Part shown: positions 10,039 to 20,758 of the stretch, in pieces | Position numbering within the stretch: position 1 is the first letter of the stretch | Layout of the letters: every line of letters begins with the position of its first letter | NCBI GenBank assembly: GCA_024690825.1 | Contig: JAILOK010000098.1 | Span: forward strand, 1 to 64,000 | Source: Lachnospiraceae bacterium | GTDB lineage: Bacteria; Bacillota; Clostridia; Lachnospirales; Lachnospiraceae | DNA: 64,000 nucleotides | Direction of reading: 5' to 3' | Notes under the pieces: generated by a model | Databases searched by the model: none | Seen by the model: only the letters and a program-made list of their open reading frames with translations | Told to the model about the DNA's origin: nothing | Translations under genes and position numbers: made by a program

Positions 10039-12996
10039 ATGAAAAAAACACGAAAACTTATGTTGCTGACAGTCTCATTTCTGGTGATGCTCGCACTGGG
10101 CACGGTCCCGGTCATGGCGGATGATGAGGGCGATCCCGCAAAACTTAAAGAACTGATGGAAGAGGACGGTATGTATGTCCAGAAGGGACAGTATACCGAG
10201 CTTGATACGGTAAAGCTTGCATCGGAGGGGAAACTTTTAAGCTGTTTCGGGAATAATGCCGGTTCGGCTTATATCGTATTCAATCTTCCGGCATCTCCGG
10301 AGCAGGACACATCAAAAGGCTCCGAGCTTTTAGGCTGGCCCGATGAGACAGCAACGGAATATGATGATCCGGAGGTTAAAAACTATCCGGCAAATCCGTA
10401 CTTTGCGCCGGGAGGATGGGAATACAAGCTCCGCCAGGATGAGGCGATAGTCCTTATCACCGAGCTTCCCGGGCAGTGCAAGTATTATTCGTTTATAAAT
10501 TATCTCATGTTTGCCGAAAACAAGCCCGGCAAGGATTACAGCAGCATAACCGGCATGTTCACTGCGGGAGATGAAAAGACGGGCCTCTATCATCCGATCT
10601 TCGGTTCCATCGGCAATTCATTAAACATGACAAATATAAAGCACAGCGGCAAAAGCGAGTTCGGATCGGAAGCGGTCATCGTGATAGGCGCCAATAAAAC
10701 CGTTGTCGGCCATGTCAAGGCTTCCTTAAGAGAAGCCGGATATGATGAGGATATGATAAATGTGATGCCCATACCTGCGGACACCTACAGGATGGGACTT
10801 GAAAAGGGGGACGACACCTTCTCATTCCTTCAGAGAGTATCCCAGGCGGATGATAAAGAGGCATATGAGGATTACCTTAAGAACATATCGGAAAGATCGA
10901 CCGTCTACAGGGTGACCCCGAAGGAAGAGGAAGAAGAGGATCCCTTCAAAAACGAAAAGGTGATCCCGAGAGGAACAGGCGAGCATGAATCCGCAGAGCT
11001 TAAGGATGCCGAGGGTACCCTTGATTCAATAAGAGAGTCGCTCATAAAAAAATACTCGGATGATTTTGAATGCGAGGAGCTTGACTGCCAGATCGCGGTG
11101 CCGGAAGGCCTGACGGCATATTTTACGGACTTTAACGCAAAGGGAGACAACAGGGATGCCATGTATCTGATGACACCGGAATTCACACTGGATTCCGATG
11201 AGGATTTCATAGTCACCTACGGAGTCAATCATACGGCAGCGGGGAAGGGCATATATTCAAACGCAGTCCTTTACGCGAAGCCCATGCTCAACGGAGTGAC
11301 GAGCATTTATGATTCGCTTTACAGCGGAAGCGCAAAGGAATGGCTTGATAAGGATAATAAAGACGCGGACAAGTACTATGTCTACAAGATGGCGCGGACA
11401 AAGATGGATGAGCATACGGCGGTCATCCCTTATTCCACGGGAAATACTCAGGGCAAGTACTATGGAGTCGACAATAAGAACCCGGTGCTCGTAGCCTTCA
11501 GGTCATATCTTGAAGACACCGGAACGGGCGCTTCCTACTATGAAGTGGTATATGACAGGGTAATGGTATTCCACAAGAAACAGGACGGAAAAAAATCTTC
11601 GGAAAAAGCAGAATTTACCGATAATTCGAAGGAACTTAAGGATGCCCTTGCCGGAGACGATTTTGAGGTGCAGGAAGGAAAACTCTATCCTTTTGATACC
11701 TTAAAACTTGCTTCGGAAGGAAAGATCAAGACCTGCTTCGGAAACAATGCGGGTTCCGATTATCTGATACTCGATCTTCCCGATGCTCCGGGACAGAAGG
11801 TGCCGAATCCGGCTTTCGCGCCCGAGGGAATGCAGTTCAAGCTTCGCCAGGATGAAGCGGTCATAGTTGCCACGAAGTTTGCAGACCCCTGCAAATACTG
11901 GTCCTTTATTCTCTATGAGATGTTTGCAAAGCAGAAGGAGGGCAAGGATTATTCAAGGGAAAAGGGATTCTTAAGCGTGGGTGATGAAAAGACGGGACTT
12001 TATCACACCATCTTTTCATCCGTCGGAGCGCCGGTCGATATGCTCAATGCCGCTCATGACGGAGATACTGCTTTCGGCACGACGGGAGTTATCGTGATAT
12101 GCGCCAATAAGGACGTAAAGGAAAGGATCATGAAATGCCTTGCCGATGCGGGATATCCCGGTAGCATGGTAAATGTAATGGAGATCCCGTCCGGTATTTA
12201 TGATATGGGTCTTGAAAAGAGCAAGGATACCTTCAGCCTCTTCGGACGTATCTCACAGCCGGAGGACAGGGATGCCTATGATAAGTACATTGAGGAGCTT
12301 TCGGATAATTCCTTTGTTTTCCGCGTGACTCCCAAAAAAGAGGTGAAGGAGAATTCCTTTGAGGTTAAAGAACTGAAGCCCCGCGGCAGCGGAATACATG
12401 AGGCATCGCAGGTAGACAGCTGTTCAGAGAATCTCGATGAGATCCGCAGGGAGATAATCGATAAATATTCCGATGAATACGATTATGAGGAGCTTACGAC
12501 CGAGATCGGGATCATAGACGGACTTACGGCCTATACCAACGATGTAAATGCAAACGGGGATGTCCATGACGCGGCATATCTTATCACTCCGGACTTCAAG
12601 CTGAACAGTGACGATGATTTTGTGGTGGTCTACGGAGTTAATCATGCCACGACGAAAAAGGCGCATTATTTCAATGCCGTGCTTCATGCAAAGCCGATGC
12701 TGAACGGAGTCTGCACCGTATTTGATTCGATGCTTTCGGGAAGCGCGGATGAATTTCTGTCAAAGAAAACCTCCGGAGATGATCAGTTCTACGCCTACAA
12801 GATGGCAAGGACAAAGCTTGATGATCATACGCAGACCATACCTTTTTCCACCGGAAACAAGGAAGGAAAGTTTTACGGCGTGGACAATGACAATCCGGTA
12901 TTTGTATTATTCCGCATCTACCTTGACCAGACCGGAGTGGGAGCCGATTACTACGAGCTCGTAAACGACAGGGTGATAGTATTCCACAAGAAATAA
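10039..12996 (+). CDS. Secreted protein made of two copies of an unknown ~450-residue module
   Basis: A 985-residue protein with a signal peptide (residues 1-27, ending PVMA-DDE). I do not recognise the family. The mature part is an internal duplication: residues about 30-515 and 530-985 repeat the same landmarks in the same order. These are CFGNNAGS, KLRQDEA, a CKY(Y/W)SF segment, GDEKTGLYH.IF.S.G, MGLEK..DTFS, a YGVNH strand, AKPMLNGV, KMARTK.D.HT, FSTGN..GK.YGVDN.NPV and a closing DRV.VFHKK. The first copy holds an extra stretch after the first landmark (about 95-110). There is no lipobox or cell-wall signal, so it should be released or loosely bound. AAGGGGG lies 6 nt before the ATG. It is transcribed divergently from the channel operon. 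Confidence 0.85.
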   Translation: MKKTRKLMLLTVSFLVMLALGTVPVMADDEGDPAKLKELMEEDGMYVQKGQYTELDTVKLASEGKLLSCFGNNAGSAYIVFNLPASPEQDTSKGSELLGWPDETATEYDDPEVKNYPANPYFAPGGWEYKLRQDEAIVLITELPGQCKYYSFINYLMFAENKPGKDYSSITGMFTAGDEKTGLYHPIFGSIGNSLNMTNIKHSGKSEFGSEAVIVIGANKTVVGHVKASLREAGYDEDMINVMPIPADTYRMGLEKGDDTFSFLQRVSQADDKEAYEDYLKNISERSTVYRVTPKEEEEEDPFKNEKVIPRGTGEHESAELKDAEGTLDSIRESLIKKYSDDFECEELDCQIAVPEGLTAYFTDFNAKGDNRDAMYLMTPEFTLDSDEDFIVTYGVNHTAAGKGIYSNAVLYAKPMLNGVTSIYDSLYSGSAKEWLDKDNKDADKYYVYKMARTKMDEHTAVIPYSTGNTQGKYYGVDNKNPVLVAFRSYLEDTGTGASYYEVVYDRVMVFHKKQDGKKSSEKAEFTDNSKELKDALAGDDFEVQEGKLYPFDTLKLASEGKIKTCFGNNAGSDYLILDLPDAPGQKVPNPAFAPEGMQFKLRQDEAVIVATKFADPCKYWSFILYEMFAKQKEGKDYSREKGFLSVGDEKTGLYHTIFSSVGAPVDMLNAAHDGDTAFGTTGVIVICANKDVKERIMKCLADAGYPGSMVNVMEIPSGIYDMGLEKSKDTFSLFGRISQPEDRDAYDKYIEELSDNSFVFRVTPKKEVKENSFEVKELKPRGSGIHEASQVDSCSENLDEIRREIIDKYSDEYDYEELTTEIGIIDGLTAYTNDVNANGDVHDAAYLITPDFKLNSDDDFVVVYGVNHATTKKAHYFNAVLHAKPMLNGVCTVFDSMLSGSADEFLSKKTSGDDQFYAYKMARTKLDDHTQTIPFSTGNKEGKFYGVDNDNPVFVLFRIYLDQTGVGADYYELVNDRVIVFHKK

Positions 12997-14059: not shown

Positions 14060-14163
14060 CATGCGTTCAATCCTTGAAATGCCCGACTTTATACAGTAAA
14101 ATTATATCTTGTGCATTATGTCCTTTACGCGGTGAAAGACAGGGGAAAATTCAAGGGGTATTT

Positions 14164-16215
14164 ATGAATCAGAGAAATAACGAAAAATTTATAGTACTGG
14201 TCGACTCGCTTGCAGCGGTGGTGCTGATCATAGAGGTAATCCTGATGGGATGGGAATTCTGGGTTCCTCCGGTGGTCATAGCCGGAATGATCGCTCTGTG
14301 GGCGGTAGGCCTGTCTGAAAAGATGGATCAGGATGTCCGCATGCTTTTTTATTTTTCATACGGCGCCCTGATGCTTTTTTATCACGGCGTTCATAAAACC
14401 AGCATGTTTGATATTGCCCTGACTGCCGTTCTGGTTATGGCGACTTATTCGATACTGAACAGGGTATATATGATGAACGCGATCCTGTTTGAGTATTTCT
14501 TCCTGCTTGTCATCCATGTCTGTAATTTCACGGGAGGGACACCGATCGAGCTTACCAGAGAAACCATAGCGCGTCTGCTGCTTCATGTGGCGATAGTGAC
14601 ATTTGTTTACTATATCAGCGTCAGGACCATCAATGAAAGGATCGATGACGAGGAAGAAAAGAAAGTCAGGGAAGAGCGCATAGAGGAAAATGATGCGAGC
14701 ACCGAGGATTTCCTGTCAAATATCTCCCATGAACTCAGAACGCCTGTAAATGTCGTCAACGGCATGTCGGATCTTCTGCTCAAAAGAGGAGCCGGGTACG
14801 AAGCGGATTCCGTGAAAAAAGCCGGAGTGCGGCTTGCCTACCAGATAGAGGATATCCAGGATTATACGGAGTGCAAGAGCGGAAGCGTATTTCTGGAAGA
14901 AGATGAATACATGAGCACATCGCTTATCAATGATGTGGTCACTTATTTCCGCTTAAGTGATAATACGGGCGATCTTGAGATGGTCGTGGACCTGTCTCCC
15001 GATACGCCCACGGTAATGACCGGAGATGTGAAAAAGATCCACAAGATCTTCAGGCACCTTCTTGAAAACGCCGTCAAGTTTACGAAAAACGGCGGCATTT
15101 ATGTGCGGCTTTATACGGAACCTACCGATTACGGTGTAAACTTAAGCATCGAGATGACGGATACCGGCATAGGAATGGATGCAAACGACATCCTCTCCGT
15201 CAGCGCGGGTCTTTATCAGGCAAACAAGAAAAGAAACCGCAGCTCGGGCGGCATAGGACTTGGTCTTTTTATAGTTTACGGGTTTACCCACAGGATGGGA
15301 GGCTTTGTAAAGATCGAAAGCGAGAAAGGAAACGGTACGACCGTCAGAGTCACCATCCCTCAGAAGGTGGTCGACAAAAAGCCATGTATGACATTAAGAG
15401 ACGGCTTCGACAGCCCCGTTCTTTTCCATGTCAGGCCGGACAAGTACAAGGTCCCGAAGCTTCGTGATTTCTACCGTAACATGGTGGCAAATCTTGCTAC
15501 AGGATTCCATGTTCCGGTTTATCCGGCAGAGACAGTGTACGAGGTGGAGCGTCTGAAGGAAAAACTGGGCGCAAGCCATGTATTCATGGGACAGGAAGAG
15601 TATGAGGAAAACAGGGGATATTTCGAAGAACTTGCAAAGGAGGATATCGTTGTAGCCGTATCTGCGGATGCGGAATACGAGCTTCCCGCAAACAGCAGGG
15701 TAGTCCTCATGCCCAAGCCTCTGTATGCATATCCCGTAATAAAGATATTAAACGAGGGAAAAGATGCCGGTGATGTGGAAGAAAACGAGCATACGGAAAG
15801 ACCGATATTTAAGGGCGTGAAGGCGCTTGTTGTTGATGACGAGCCGATGAACCTCGTCGTGGCCACCAGCCTGTTCAGAAATTATGAAATGACAGTGGAG
15901 ACCGCGGAAAGCGGGAAAGAAGCAATAAAGAAGTTCCGAGACAATGATTATGACCTGATCTTCATGGATCATATGATGCCGGAGATGGACGGAGTCGAGG
16001 CAATGAAGAGAATAAGGGATGCAGCCTCGGATCTGGGCAAAAATATCATCATAGTTGCCTTTACCGCAAACGCGGTATCGGGAGCAAGGGAAATGTTCAT
16101 CAAGGAGGGCTTTGACGGATTCATCGCAAAGCCGATCAATACTTCGGATTTTGAAAGAGTGATGATGAGGGTGCTGCCGGGAGCGGCATCAGGCAAAGGA
16201 GGTAAAGCGGAATGA
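14164..16215 (+). CDS. Hybrid sensor histidine kinase (TM sensor, HisKA, HATPase, receiver)
   Basis: A 683-residue protein from the ATG at 14164 (AAGGGG 6 nt upstream). Residues 1-165 contain five to six membrane helices with little extracellular sequence. A short coiled linker leads to the dimerisation helix with phosphoacceptor H189 in SNISHELRTP. The ATPase has the N box HLLENAVKFT, DTGIGM and GGIGLGL. A central segment (about 415-540) looks like a degenerate receiver-like linker. The C-terminal receiver has phosphoacceptor D602 in FMDHMMPEMDG. There is no HPt domain; the next gene, overlapping by four bases (ATGA), has one, so phosphate could pass between the two proteins. The signal is unknown. 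Confidence 0.9.
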   Translation: MNQRNNEKFIVLVDSLAAVVLIIEVILMGWEFWVPPVVIAGMIALWAVGLSEKMDQDVRMLFYFSYGALMLFYHGVHKTSMFDIALTAVLVMATYSILNRVYMMNAILFEYFFLLVIHVCNFTGGTPIELTRETIARLLLHVAIVTFVYYISVRTINERIDDEEEKKVREERIEENDASTEDFLSNISHELRTPVNVVNGMSDLLLKRGAGYEADSVKKAGVRLAYQIEDIQDYTECKSGSVFLEEDEYMSTSLINDVVTYFRLSDNTGDLEMVVDLSPDTPTVMTGDVKKIHKIFRHLLENAVKFTKNGGIYVRLYTEPTDYGVNLSIEMTDTGIGMDANDILSVSAGLYQANKKRNRSSGGIGLGLFIVYGFTHRMGGFVKIESEKGNGTTVRVTIPQKVVDKKPCMTLRDGFDSPVLFHVRPDKYKVPKLRDFYRNMVANLATGFHVPVYPAETVYEVERLKEKLGASHVFMGQEEYEENRGYFEELAKEDIVVAVSADAEYELPANSRVVLMPKPLYAYPVIKILNEGKDAGDVEENEHTERPIFKGVKALVVDDEPMNLVVATSLFRNYEMTVETAESGKEAIKKFRDNDYDLIFMDHMMPEMDGVEAMKRIRDAASDLGKNIIIVAFTANAVSGAREMFIKEGFDGFIAKPINTSDFERVMMRVLPGAASGKGGKAE

Positions 16216-19200
16216 AACTGTTTGATTTCTTCAAAAAAGCCTCTGATGCCGTAAAGGATTACAACAGGGATTTTAACCATAGGATATTTCTGATCCTGTC
16301 GCTTGTGGTGGAGGGTGTCGTCATAGTAGCGATCACGGGCGATCTTATTATGGGAGATAATCCGCGCGAGATTGCCGTCATCGCCTCAACCCTCATATTG
16401 ATACCGATTGTCGTGCTTGTCTGCCTGTATTTTGAAAAGCTTAATCTGGGCATCAAGATCATCATGTTATGCGTTGTATTCTTAACCATTCCAAGTCTCT
16501 TCTTTTTCGGAGGCGGTCTTGAGGGCGGAGGGGTTTTGTGGATCATCATAGCTTACATGTATGTCGGACTGTTTCTCCACGGCAGATGGAGAAAGGGAAT
16601 GTATCTGATAGTAACTGCTGTTGCGCTTATATGCTATGTAGTCTCTTATTATCATCCGGAGTGGGTGTACCCGCATACCCGCAAAATGTTTTTCGTGGAT
16701 TCCTTTATTTCGCTCGTCCTGGTCGGAACCCTATGCTATATCATGACATGGGCGCAGGGGCATCTGTTTACGGATGAGAATAGACGCGCAAAAAAGGAAG
16801 CGGAAAGGGCAGAGGAACTCACACGCTCGCAGAACCGCTTTTTCTCCAATATGAGTCATGAGATCCGTACACCGATCAACTCTATCCTGGGATTGAATGA
16901 GCTGATACTCCGTAACGAGAAAACTCCGGATGAGGTCGTAAAGGATGCCTCCGGCATACAGGGCGCAGGCAAGATGCTTTTGGCGCTGATAAATGACATT
17001 CTTGATTTTTCAAAGATAGAGGCCGGCAGCATGGACATAGTTCCGGTTGATTACCGTATCGGGGATATGCTTTCCGAGATAGTGAACATGATCTGGCTGA
17101 GGGCTCATGATAAGGGCCTCGGATTTGAAGTGAGCGTGGATCCGGATGTTCCCATGGTGCTCTACGGTGATGAGGTACGTATCAAGCAGGTCATGATAAA
17201 TCTGCTTAATAATGCCGTAAAATACACTAAGGAAGGACATGTCGAGCTTCGTGTTGAAAGCAAGGATATTGATGAAAATACCATTGAACTGCTGATATCG
17301 ATCTCCGATACCGGAATGGGGATCAAAAAGGAGGACCTGCCTTATCTCTTTGATGCCTTCAAACGCGTGGATGAAGGAAAGAACAGGCATATAGAAGGAA
17401 CGGGACTTGGACTTAATATCGTAAAACAGCTGGTTGAACTGATGAACGGAACCGTAACGGTTAACAGCGTGTACGGTGAGGGCTCAACCTTTACGGTTAT
17501 GTTGAAACAGACTGTATCCGACCACAATCCCGTGGGAGAGCTTGATATCCATAACCAGCAGATGATGAAGAGGAGCAATTATGAGAGCAGCTTCCTCGCT
17601 CCCGAAGTCAGGATCCTCATAGTGGATGATAATGAGATGAACCTCAAGGTCGAAAAGAGACTCCTTGAGGATACGGATATGGCCATTGATACGGCAAAGA
17701 GCGGAAGAGAAGCTCTGGAAATGAGCACGACATATCACTACGATGCCATTTTCATGGATCACCTGATGCCGGAAATGGACGGCATAGAGTGTCTGGAACT
17801 TTTAAGAAATCAGGCAGGCGGACTTAACAGGTCCACGCCCGTTATCGTGCTGACCGCAAATGCCGGGAGCACAAACAGAGATCTGTACGCGAAATCGGGA
17901 TTTGACGGATATCTGGTCAAACCTGTTTCGAGCGAAGCCATGGAAGAAATGCTCGTACGGCATATCCCGGGCGAGAAGATCATCTTGAGATCCGCGCTCA
18001 TAGGCAATGATGAGGAAATACACATCTCCGAAAAATATGCCGAGAGGGTTCCGGTCATCGTTACCGCTTCGAGCATGTGCGATCTTCCCGACAATGTCAT
18101 CAAGAAGCTCAACATACCGATCCTCCCTGTCATAATAAAGACGGAGGACGGCGTGTTCAAGGACGGTGTCCATATGGACGCGATCGAACTGATCAAGCAT
18201 GTGGCGGAAGGAAAGGAAGCGTACTCCGTACTTTCCGGCGAGGCTGAGTATACCGAGTTCTTTGCCGGTGTGCTTAAAAAGGCGCATCATGTCATACATA
18301 TAGCGACGACCGACAGCATGAGAGGAGATAATCACGCAGCAAGGGAGGCAGCCAAATCCTTTGACAATGTTACGGTCATCAACTCGGAGACCACCTCAAG
18401 CGCCGCGGGAATCCTGGTGCTCATTGCATGCAAGCTTGTACATCAGGGCATGGCGGCGGAGGATATCGTTTTGGAACTTGAGTCTGTAAAGAAAAAGCTG
18501 AACTGCAGTTTTGTAATAAATACGACGGATTTCCTGGCAAAGAAGGGACTTATAAGCAAAAGGATGAACAGGATCGCGGACGCGGTCAATATTCATCCCA
18601 TATTCAAAACCAGAAACGACAAAGGCCGTATCGAAAAACTGGCCTTCGGAAGGACAAAGAGAGCATACAGGCAGTATATTCACGGGGCATTTACTCCGGG
18701 ATTCCCTCCGGACAAGGATGTTGTTTTTATTACCTATGTGGACATACCCGCAGATATGCTTGCGTGGATAGTGGAAGAGGTGAAAAAGTGCGCTGCCTTT
18801 GAACATGTTGTGCTGCAGCAGGCTTCCGCCGCCATATCCTTAAACTGCGGATCGGGAACCTTCGGAATCATGTACTTCCATAAGACGGGCAAATCCTACA
18901 ATATTGCCTCATTTATCGAAGATAACAGCAGGATCGCAAAGGACCTTCCTGAGGATGATGCCGTAAATGAGACCGATGAACAGGCTGAACAGACGCAGCA
19001 GACAAAAGAAAGAGATGATTCGGGGATAGAGATACGCTCGTATGAGCCTGTGGCGGCCGTGGAACCGTCAAGGTCGTTTGGAATGACGTTAGAACGCAAG
19101 TGGTATCAGAACATCAAATGCATAGATACCAAGATAGGTATCAAAAACTGTGAATCCGAGGAAACATTCAAGGCTGTGCTGGATATGTTTGTGGAAGCGG

Positions 19201-19448
19201 TTCCCGAGACCATCGAGGAACTCGACGGATGCTTTGATGCCGAGGACTGGGAAAACTATACGATCAAGATACATGCCCTCAAGGGTTCCGCGAAACTTGT
19301 CGGTGCGGCTGAACTTGGCGATATGGCGGAAAAACTCCAGTTTGCGGGTGATGAGAACAATATCCAGTACATAAAGGATAACCACGCAGCCGCCATGGAA
19401 AATTACAGGAGGCTCGGAGAAGCCCTTGCACCTGTATTTGAAGAATAA
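16212..19448 (+). CDS. Hybrid histidine kinase with receiver, DegV lipid-binding and HPt domains
   Basis: A 1078-residue protein. Six hydrophobic helices (about 20-180), HisKA with H216 in SNMSHEIRTP, ATPase (NLLNNAVKYT, DTGMGI, GTGLGLNI), receiver with D516 in FMDHLMPEMDG. Residues about 613-897 match the DegV (EDD) fold: VPVIVTASSMCDLP at the first strand, IPILPVIIKTEDGVFKDGV, an SVLSGEAEYTEFF helix, the IATTDSMRG loop, VINSETTSSAAGIL and NTTDFLAKKGLISK. DegV proteins bind a fatty acid, as in the FakB subunits. A linker leads to a C-terminal HPt domain with H1021 in IHALKGSAK. A DegV module between receiver and HPt suggests lipid control of phosphotransfer. Domains are clear; lipid sensing is inference. 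Confidence 0.9.
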   Translation: MKLFDFFKKASDAVKDYNRDFNHRIFLILSLVVEGVVIVAITGDLIMGDNPREIAVIASTLILIPIVVLVCLYFEKLNLGIKIIMLCVVFLTIPSLFFFGGGLEGGGVLWIIIAYMYVGLFLHGRWRKGMYLIVTAVALICYVVSYYHPEWVYPHTRKMFFVDSFISLVLVGTLCYIMTWAQGHLFTDENRRAKKEAERAEELTRSQNRFFSNMSHEIRTPINSILGLNELILRNEKTPDEVVKDASGIQGAGKMLLALINDILDFSKIEAGSMDIVPVDYRIGDMLSEIVNMIWLRAHDKGLGFEVSVDPDVPMVLYGDEVRIKQVMINLLNNAVKYTKEGHVELRVESKDIDENTIELLISISDTGMGIKKEDLPYLFDAFKRVDEGKNRHIEGTGLGLNIVKQLVELMNGTVTVNSVYGEGSTFTVMLKQTVSDHNPVGELDIHNQQMMKRSNYESSFLAPEVRILIVDDNEMNLKVEKRLLEDTDMAIDTAKSGREALEMSTTYHYDAIFMDHLMPEMDGIECLELLRNQAGGLNRSTPVIVLTANAGSTNRDLYAKSGFDGYLVKPVSSEAMEEMLVRHIPGEKIILRSALIGNDEEIHISEKYAERVPVIVTASSMCDLPDNVIKKLNIPILPVIIKTEDGVFKDGVHMDAIELIKHVAEGKEAYSVLSGEAEYTEFFAGVLKKAHHVIHIATTDSMRGDNHAAREAAKSFDNVTVINSETTSSAAGILVLIACKLVHQGMAAEDIVLELESVKKKLNCSFVINTTDFLAKKGLISKRMNRIADAVNIHPIFKTRNDKGRIEKLAFGRTKRAYRQYIHGAFTPGFPPDKDVVFITYVDIPADMLAWIVEEVKKCAAFEHVVLQQASAAISLNCGSGTFGIMYFHKTGKSYNIASFIEDNSRIAKDLPEDDAVNETDEQAEQTQQTKERDDSGIEIRSYEPVAAVEPSRSFGMTLERKWYQNIKCIDTKIGIKNCESEETFKAVLDMFVEAVPETIEELDGCFDAEDWENYTIKIHALKGSAKLVGAAELGDMAEKLQFAGDENNIQYIKDNHAAAMENYRRLGEALAPVFEE

Positions 19449-19792: not shown

Positions 19793-20758
19793 ATGCTCAT
19801 CACACTTGAAGAAACCGTTGCTTTGATCAATGAGGGAAAGATACTGCATATTGCTGCAGATGAATCGCTTTTGGACAAACTCCCGAAGGGAAAATGGATA
19901 GGCGGCACCACACCGTATTTCATCGGTGAAGAGGGCGGAATTTACACAAAAGAAAAGCTGTTTGTAAATGAGATCGGCGTAGCGGAGGATATAAGGGTCG
20001 CAGTCTACGGGAAATACAATATTTTCCAGATCGTTGAGGAATGCTACGACAACGGTCTGACGATGCTGATCATTCCTTACGGTTCACAGGTTGCGGCAAA
20101 GTATGCAAAGGAGGCTCCGGAGGTAGAGGAACTTCTGATGCATCCCGTTATCGGATGGATCTCGGGTCTGTCTCTTGACGGAACGGGTGAAGCCAGAGTA
20201 TATGACGGAACGACCGGCAAGTATTATACCGACAGAGCCGTGGCCATGTATCTCAAGCTTCCCGAGGGCAAGACTGCCATGGTAAATATGATAAATATCT
20301 TTTCGGACGACAAGACGGATCCGATCATCCGTTTCAATGAAAATGACCTGAGCGTGGAAAAATGCAGCGTGAACGGACAGGAGATCAATTTTGCGGAGTA
20401 CATCGAAAAGAAGGGAATCGATACCAAGATGCCGCTTGTGGCCGACTACAACGGCTCCTATATCAATACCTCCATCAAGAGCATAGAAAACGGAAGAGTG
20501 AATTTCTATGCGTCGGTATTCAGGAATATCGATTACAGGTTTGCGACTGATGTAGGCGACTATGCGGCCGAGTTCAGGAAAAGGATCGATGCGGCAGAAG
20601 CCCATGCGCCCGTCTTTTCCTGCAACTGTATCTTAAATTATCTTTACGGTGACTTAAACGGAAAGAAGATACCGCCTTATGCGGGGCCGGTCACTTTCGG
20701 AGAGGTGGCTTACCAGCTGATCAACCAGACGCTGGTGTACTGCGAGATTCTCGGATGA
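19793..20758 (+). CDS. FIST/DUF6976-like protein
   Basis: A 321-residue soluble protein, not securely recognised. The N-terminal pattern ADESLLDKLPKGKWIGGTTPYFIGEEGG and the C-terminal PVTFGEVAYQLINQTLVYCEI resemble DUF6976 and the C-terminal part of FIST sensor proteins, which bind small ligands and are often linked to signalling genes. The context fits: it closes the operon of two hybrid kinases, with AAGGAGG 8 nt before the ATG. Cys residues cluster late (SCNCILNYLYGD), possibly a metal or redox site. A strong terminator follows after 27 nt. Confidence 0.6.
   Translation: MLITLEETVALINEGKILHIAADESLLDKLPKGKWIGGTTPYFIGEEGGIYTKEKLFVNEIGVAEDIRVAVYGKYNIFQIVEECYDNGLTMLIIPYGSQVAAKYAKEAPEVEELLMHPVIGWISGLSLDGTGEARVYDGTTGKYYTDRAVAMYLKLPEGKTAMVNMINIFSDDKTDPIIRFNENDLSVEKCSVNGQEINFAEYIEKKGIDTKMPLVADYNGSYINTSIKSIENGRVNFYASVFRNIDYRFATDVGDYAAEFRKRIDAAEAHAPVFSCNCILNYLYGDLNGKKIPPYAGPVTFGEVAYQLINQTLVYCEILG

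Follow-up and report, generated by a model that had tools for sequence, protein, structure and literature searches.

A Hybrid Kinase of Lachnospiraceae with a DegV Domain Between REC and HPt, a Candidate Ligand Sensor in a Kinase Pair with a Single HPt

The window analyzed here is the whole stretch of 64,000 nucleotides from a Lachnospiraceae bacterium (assembly GCA_024690825.1, contig JAILOK010000098.1, positions 1–64,000). It contains a gene for a hybrid histidine kinase of 1078 amino acids (aa), here called HK2, in which a DegV domain is placed between the receiver domain (REC) and the histidine phosphotransfer domain (HPt). The gene upstream overlaps with it and encodes a second hybrid kinase, HK1. 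The DegV hybrid kinase is a real and widespread kinase variant. The best reading of its DegV domain, although unproven, is a sensor of lipids or of another ligand. It may sense lipids instead of carrying them.

Domain Organization and Predicted Fold

Five Pfam matches of HK2 are above the gathering cut-offs, and the domain order is transmembrane region-HisKA-HATPase-REC-DegV-HPt. HK2 contains the HisKA histidine, the HATPase boxes, the REC aspartate, and the HPt histidine, the features of a hybrid kinase with HPt. A preliminary description of this DNA, made from the letters and open reading frames (ORFs) only, proposed a full DegV region (residues 613–897) upstream of an HPt with H1021. Pfam bears out this arrangement, and the proposed boundaries are right to a few residues (617–890 for DegV and 989–1044 for HPt). 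The description was silent on the overlapping HK1 gene, and the presence of six such domains in the genome was beyond its view. The HPt motif of HK2 is HALKGS, against the consensus HALKSS. HK2 stops shortly past HPt; most relatives have a C-terminal extension.

The DegV domain matches PF02645 with 122 bits (cut-off 27, E = 3.8e-35) over positions 4–279 of the 280-position profile. It also passes the cut-off of NCBIfam TIGR00762 (134.1 bits, cut-off 99.7). With phmmer, 22 distinct chains in the PDB are found at E ≤ 0.01, the best of which is 2dt8 (2.4e-21); they are named as DegV, FakB, fatty-acid-binding, or hypothetical proteins. An AlphaFold2 model of the isolated domain, based on an alignment of 50 sequences, has a mean predicted local distance difference test score (pLDDT) of 83.7 and a predicted template modeling score (pTM) of 0.81. 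When this model is compared with the PDB by Foldseek, the first 45 rows are all DegV/FakB entries, with TM-scores by query length of 0.69–0.82. The titles of the nearest entries are lipid or fatty-acid binders, FakB, and DegV-family proteins of unknown function. The domain is predicted to keep the EDD/FakB fold, so that one outcome that would have refuted the preliminary description, absence of the EDD fold, is not borne out.

Distribution of DegV Hybrid Kinases

The genome that contains the window (2.95 Mb, 138 contigs) encodes eight DegV domains. Two are stand-alone proteins, and six are in open frames of 725–1149 aa. All six long frames encode kinases with the layout of HK2, with or without HPt. 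The nearest paralogue of HK2 (locus C88) is 65% identical to it in DegV. The window copy, viewed beside L012:7336-10770, deviates at 7 of the 85 strongly conserved columns of HPt-type DegV (median of the copies 2, maximum 29). The genome has one Dak2 gene, which is probably of the FakA type, judging from its length.

A scan of named genomes found at least 531 relatives, and the best 80 of them were taken as loci, a sample that leans to the window type. The titles of 79 of these 80 are Lachnospiraceae, Butyrivibrio, or Eubacterium; many are from the rumen, and some are not labeled as metagenome-assembled genomes (MAGs). The same layout is seen in records without the MAG label: Butyrivibrio sp. 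XPD2002 and VCD2006, and Lachnospiraceae bacteria AB2028, NC2004, AD3010, and V9D3004. Among 299 genomes of the same family, taken as Lachnospiraceae from its named relatives, at least 46 encode a matching DegV within an open frame that is 700 aa or longer, counted from the matches listed, with domains inspected in part of the frames. Sixty more loci were hand-picked from this family scan, among its rows with long frames or with scores near the threshold. Because of how the loci were chosen, ratios of HPt-bearing to HPt-less copies are not prevalences. The domain profiles applied to the loci were built from the six proteins of the window genome (seven sequences for HPt, three for HD-GYP, and one for GGDEF), and weak domains can escape them.

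Outside the family, six matches in an order sample (146 genomes) and 19 in a phylum sample (149 genomes) are in frames of 286–370 aa, with one exception, at E cut-offs of 1e-55 and 1e-50, which weaker relatives escape. The exception is a 580-aa frame composed of DegV and an N-terminus without an assigned domain.

Chance and assembly artefact were considered as origins of the fusion and ruled out, based on the copy number in this genome and the many genomes that contain it. The five other ORFs and the records without the MAG label indicate that it is neither. The rarity implied by the preliminary description does not hold, as the fusion recurs across one bacterial family. Literature searches, which covered titles and abstract starts of open-licence papers, returned no description of a DegV-containing hybrid kinase.

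Three long-frame DegVs outside the kinase group have other architectures. L225:617-2401 is a single ORF of 594 aa with Dak2-FakA_M-DegV, by its look a fused FakA-FakB. L226:660-2330 encodes a protein with a HAD hydrolase and DegV. In L224, DegV follows an N-terminus without an assigned domain.

The Kinase-Linked DegV Clade and the FakB Residues

A quick DegV tree was made with 78 rows chosen from 183, with support by the Shimodaira–Hasegawa-like approximate likelihood ratio test and without bootstrap. In this tree, 55 kinase-linked DegV domains split from 23 stand-alone or PDB rows with support of 100, and a single change of state is enough to explain the split.

FakB is described as having a Thr62-Ser95-Ser171-His270 network at the carboxylate, and its Arg173 as completely conserved and needed for catalysis (PMC8892158). 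The corresponding residues in the window copy are S672 (Thr62), T700 (Ser95), K778 (Ser171), L780 (Arg173), and N878 (His270). The numbers are those of FakB1, assigned by motif via FakB2 (4x9x) and not by direct alignment with FakB1. The lipid-pocket residues, whose absence would also have refuted the preliminary description, are present in part: the hydroxyl residues for Thr62 and Ser95 are kept, and those for Ser171, Arg173, and His270 are replaced.

These positions were tallied in 138 kinase-linked copies (83 HPt-bearing and 55 HPt-less) and 31 stand-alone proteins, with L033 left out. The position of His270 is Asn in all 83 HPt-bearing and 49 of the 55 HPt-less copies (132/138). His is seen there in none of the 83 and one of the 55, versus 30 of the 31 stand-alone proteins. 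Arg173 is kept in 5/83 and 26/55 (31/138), versus 31/31; Leu occupies this position in 60 of the 83 HPt-bearing copies. Both stand-alone DegV proteins of the window genome retain Arg173, Arg205, and His270. Because His270 and mostly Arg173 are lost while stand-alone proteins keep both, the kinase-linked DegV is probably not a partner of FakA.

The position of Thr62 is Ser or Thr in 83/83 and 45/55 (128/138), versus 31/31 stand-alone proteins, and that of Ser95 is Ser or Thr in 78/83 and 26/55 (104/138), versus 30/31. At the Ser/Gly171 position, 78 of the 83 HPt-bearing copies have Arg or Lys, HPt-less copies are mixed, and all 31 stand-alone proteins have Gly. The Thr of the LSGT motif is replaced by Asp or Glu in 82 of the 83 HPt-bearing copies. 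Position 121 is Ser in all 83, and Ser, Thr, Ala, or Cys in all 55 HPt-less copies. In 75 columns that are hydrophobic in stand-alone proteins, the hydrophobic fraction is 0.88 for HPt-bearing copies, 0.86 for HPt-less copies, and 0.84 for the window copy. As for Arg205, which in FakB serves contact with FakA and the membrane, the window copy has none at the MAFFT column, while phmmer pairs an Arg with it. The register is ambiguous because of a one-residue insertion and a nearby basic patch, GRTKR, which lies 2–5 columns past the Arg205 position in HPt-bearing members.

Distribution of HPt over the Kinase Pairs

HPt is found only on the DegV kinase in 74 of 119 pairs, only on the upstream partner in 42, on both in none, and on neither in three. 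The pairs were drawn from 148 DegV rows in 146 loci and consist of uncut DegV kinases with a kinase ORF ending at most 600 bases upstream. Excluded were 15 rows without such a kinase ORF, four cut by contig ends, and ten ORFs without a kinase domain. Two of the three pairs with HPt on neither protein have it nearby: in L081, the next ORF, which lies at a contig end, contains an HPt fragment, and in L196, a separate gene encodes HPt. On the pair of L144, no HPt was found. The window genome has three pairs with HPt on the DegV kinase and three with HPt on the partner.

The phosphorelay motifs are largely kept: the H-box of HK2 in 128/137, MDxxMP of its REC in 130/136, the HPt motif in 82/83, and the H-box of HK1 in 113/121. 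No HPt was found on the DegV protein in 55 of the 138 kinase-linked copies. This fact and the 42 pairs with HPt on the partner indicate that gating from REC to HPt within one chain is not the general mechanism. In 13 HPt-bearing loci, a further HK-REC-HPt gene is upstream of HK1. Since some loci have such neighbors with their own HPt, the one-HPt rule holds for the pair and not for the locus.

The modules are also seen in other arrangements. In L214, L215, and L216, DegV has its own gene, which follows HK-REC-HPt. L195 has a DegV-HPt protein after HK-REC, and in L190, DegV is ahead of the kinase with HPt on a separate gene. The upstream ORFs L012:6620-7339, L081:3793-6120, and L144:2805-5162 have a partial kinase match (the HisKA part) and REC, with no detectable ATPase region; the latter two are also noted with HPt. 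Perhaps they are substrates of another kinase and not kinases.

Upstream Neighbors

At two of the six loci of the window genome (C95 and C63), a REC-HD-GYP gene is directly upstream of HK1. The immediate upstream neighbor has GGDEF and/or HD-GYP in 19 of 76 loci with HPt on the DegV protein and in 20 of 50 loci without it (39/126 in total). Neighbors with a REC match only are seen in 8/76 and 11/50. The largest other class contains none of these domains (24/76 and 12/50), and the three members checked are methyl-accepting chemotaxis proteins (L199:980-2323, L200:12479-13831, and L212:12151-13494). As a background, available for the window genome only, 24 GGDEF and 22 HD_5 matches are present in 2.95 Mb.

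A Possible Mechanism and Its Alternatives

The whole of these observations may be best explained by paired hybrid kinases that share a single HPt and use the internal DegV as a sensor of a lipid-type ligand, a reading to which we give a probability of about 0.4. HK1 and HK2, membrane kinases from overlapping genes, would contact each other and act as one phosphorelay unit with a single HPt. The DegV of HK2 would keep the carrier fold and the hydrophobic interior without the residues for FakA-dependent phosphorylation, and would not pass a fatty acid to FakA. It would bind a free fatty acid or a similar amphipathic molecule from the inner leaflet of the membrane. The bound or unbound state would alter the way in which REC and HPt, on their flexible tethers, come together, either in the same chain or with the partner kinase. 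The output would be a response regulator that makes or breaks cyclic di-GMP (c-di-GMP) in a sizeable minority of loci, and conceivably for the window copy as well. Gating of phosphotransfer by a fatty acid, as the preliminary description proposed, is a good hypothesis and not a result.

Several facts weigh against this reading. Constraint on the carboxylate site is not uniform: among the 55 HPt-less members, 29 have Ala or Gly in place of Ser95, and 10 have Ala, Met, Val, or Gly in place of Thr62. The exchange of His270 for Asn would break the published hydrogen-bond chain. Position 158 has a small residue in most kinase-linked copies (Cys or Ser in 83/83; Thr, Ser, or Cys in 50/55; 133/138), versus His in 23 of the 31 stand-alone proteins, and because of this His, the small residue does not prove that a FakB tunnel is present. 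Given the sequence homology, the Foldseek match was to be expected, and it carries no information on the ligand, which is putative. The full-length model of HK2 has a pTM of 0.38 and disordered linkers. It yields no domain arrangement, and gating is therefore putative. The HPt of a pair may belong to the other protein. At C88, the upstream ORF is a 239-aa remnant with HisKA-REC. In L202 and L206, the kinase match is weak, no REC or HPt was found, and no partner is within 600 bases. Next to the window locus itself, there is no response regulator, c-di-GMP enzyme, or REC-HD-GYP gene. HPt exclusivity within the pair is weakly replicated. The tree of 75 pairs requires four changes of HPt on the DegV kinase and two on HK1. 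Three independent pairs are available; HK1 takes the opposite state in about one of them and shows no difference in about two, due to pairs with HPt on neither protein. With three independent pairs, a sign test cannot reach significance, and none can be claimed.

Much of this evidence is also explained by a docking role without a ligand. DegV could be a scaffold that docks two kinases, or REC and HPt, with the EDD fold kept for stability or interaction; we consider this doubtful. The drift of the polar pocket residues in HPt-less members is consistent with it, and so is the occurrence of DegV as a separate gene (L214, L215, and L216) or as a DegV-HPt protein (L195). Judging from the distribution of HPt, two hybrid kinases with one HPt would also need a docking device. 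However, the retained hydrophobic pattern speaks against a mere scaffold, and so does Asn at a position that in FakB is turned toward the carboxylate. This Asn is so nearly fixed that it looks like a kept function and not drift. The same systematic exchange, together with the new charged set of the HPt-bearing clade (Leu at 173, Arg or Lys at 171, and Asp or Glu in LSGT), could instead be considered as re-tooling of the site for another small ligand that is not a fatty acid. This is unlikely, as the hydrophobic columns are retained and the nearest PDB titles are lipid or fatty-acid binders, FakB, or DegV-family proteins of unknown function.

The least probable case by far is a working FakB tied covalently to a kinase, which loads a fatty acid for FakA while the fusion is incidental. 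DegV homology, the Dak2 gene in the genome, and the GRTKR patch of ambiguous register would fit, but Arg173 is absent in 107 and His270 in 137 of the 138 copies, the window copy included, and both stand-alone copies of the genome keep them. A plain FakB function was rejected on these lost residues, as far as residues can tell. Compared with all these, the shared-HPt pair with a DegV sensor is preferred. A broader extension of it is rather unlikely: a class of lipid receptors in which a FakB-type domain without the hand-off residues would be an intracellular sensor that steers phosphate between two hybrid kinases with one HPt. Such a class would be represented by six copies in this genome and extend through rumen-type Lachnospiraceae, and c-di-GMP would recur as one of its outputs.

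Gut and rumen bacteria are exposed to dietary fatty acids, and long-chain fatty acids are present in the surroundings of rumen-type Lachnospiraceae. To our knowledge, bacterial two-component receptors for fatty acids are few. Should the domain bind lipid, phosphorelays would have a direct readout of the state of the membrane or of free fatty acids. Whatever the ligand is, the sharing of a relay by two hybrid kinases could be studied cleanly in such pairs with one HPt, and the DegV family would be extended by a branch whose role is likely non-metabolic.

Features of the Window

The features are listed in Table 1. A second low-confidence linker of HK2, between REC and DegV, is at residues 594–611 of the full-length model. 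The stop codon of HK1 (TGA) overlaps the start codon of HK2 (ATG) as ATGA, which suggests that the two genes are translationally coupled; this overlap of −3 is the commonest spacing of HK1 and HK2 among related loci. The true start of HK1 is probably the ATG at 14164, since the resulting 683 aa is a length common in relatives (674–700 aa is the commonest among upstream kinases). No HPt is detected on HK1 by Pfam.

Table 1. Positions of the two kinases, the domains of HK2, and the downstream gene in the window.
Feature	Position	Strand	Evidence
HK1, partner hybrid kinase, transmembrane-HisKA-HATPase-REC	14074..16215	+	ORF list, Pfam
Shine-Dalgarno-like AAAGGAGGT ahead of HK2	16195..16203	+	Sequence inspection
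HK2, DegV hybrid kinase, 1078 aa	16212..19448	+	ORF list, Pfam, NCBIfam
HK2 N-terminal membrane region, residues 21–185, about 6 helices	16272..16766	+	Hydropathy and model helices
HK2 HisKA, residues 207–272, SHEIRTP at 215	16830..17027	+	Pfam and motif position
HK2 HATPase_c, residues 319–433	17166..17510	+	Pfam
HK2 REC (Response_reg), residues 468–581, FMDHLMP at 514	17613..17954	+	Pfam and motif position
HK2 DegV, residues 617–890	18060..18881	+	Pfam, PDB sequence matches, model, Foldseek, alignment
HK2 acidic linker DegV-HPt, residues 905–961, pLDDT <50	18924..19094	+	Full-length model
HK2 HPt, residues 989–1044, with H1021	19176..19343	+	Pfam and motif position
DUF6976 protein, 321 aa, downstream of HK2	19793..20758	+	Pfam, 407.8 bits

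A relative of the DUF6976 protein is seen in 37 of the 83 HPt-bearing DegV-kinase loci, 35 of them with it on the same strand and less than 400 bases away, and in none of the 55 HPt-less loci. This protein is possibly a functional partner of the HPt-bearing DegV kinase. It has no match in the anti-phage library, in which HK2 has three weak matches and HK1 has one, all to PDC-M43B in the ATPase region.

In HK1, a stretch of about 130 aa between HATPase and REC (15379–15798, about residues 436–575) has no Pfam match. A similar stretch is present in HK1 of L144, and it is perhaps a degenerate receiver. Elsewhere in the window, positions 10039–12996 encode a 985-aa protein with a signal-like N-terminus, two halves similar by eye, and no Pfam match.

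Comparison with Known Systems

The FakB/DegV proteins (PF02645 and TIGR00762), such as FakB1 and FakB2 of S. aureus, resemble the DegV of HK2 in whole-domain homology, in the predicted fold, and in the Thr62-type hydroxyl. The HK2-type DegV differs from them in having its own clade, in the loss of His270 and mostly of Arg173, and in the fusion into a phosphorelay. The C-terminal DegV-like domain of FakA (PDB 6w6b and 7w7h chain A) shows a distant fold likeness (Foldseek rows 46–47, TM-scores by query of 0.46–0.53), but this match is much weaker than that to FakB, and the kinase-linked DegV is on the FakB side.

Tripartite HK-REC-HPt kinases of the BarA, TorS, ArcB, and EvgS type share with HK2 the phosphorelay domain order and the catalytic motifs. 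They differ in that HK2 has a ligand-type domain between REC and HPt, and many relatives of HK2 have no HPt of their own. All NCBIfam matches of HK2 to these types are below the cut-offs.

RpfC-RpfG, of the diffusible signal factor (DSF) system of Xanthomonas, combines a membrane hybrid kinase with REC and HPt, a fatty-acid signal, and a regulator that is an HD-GYP c-di-GMP phosphodiesterase (PMC5391125). Similarly, REC-HD-GYP or REC-GGDEF genes adjoin some DegV kinases. In that account, the sensor of RpfC is a short N-terminal region, whereas the candidate sensor here is an internal DegV after REC, and here a pair of hybrid kinases has a single HPt. The comparison is one of function and claims no homology beyond the common kinase modules; by analogy, RpfC-RpfG could be considered as the closest working parallel to the DegV kinases.

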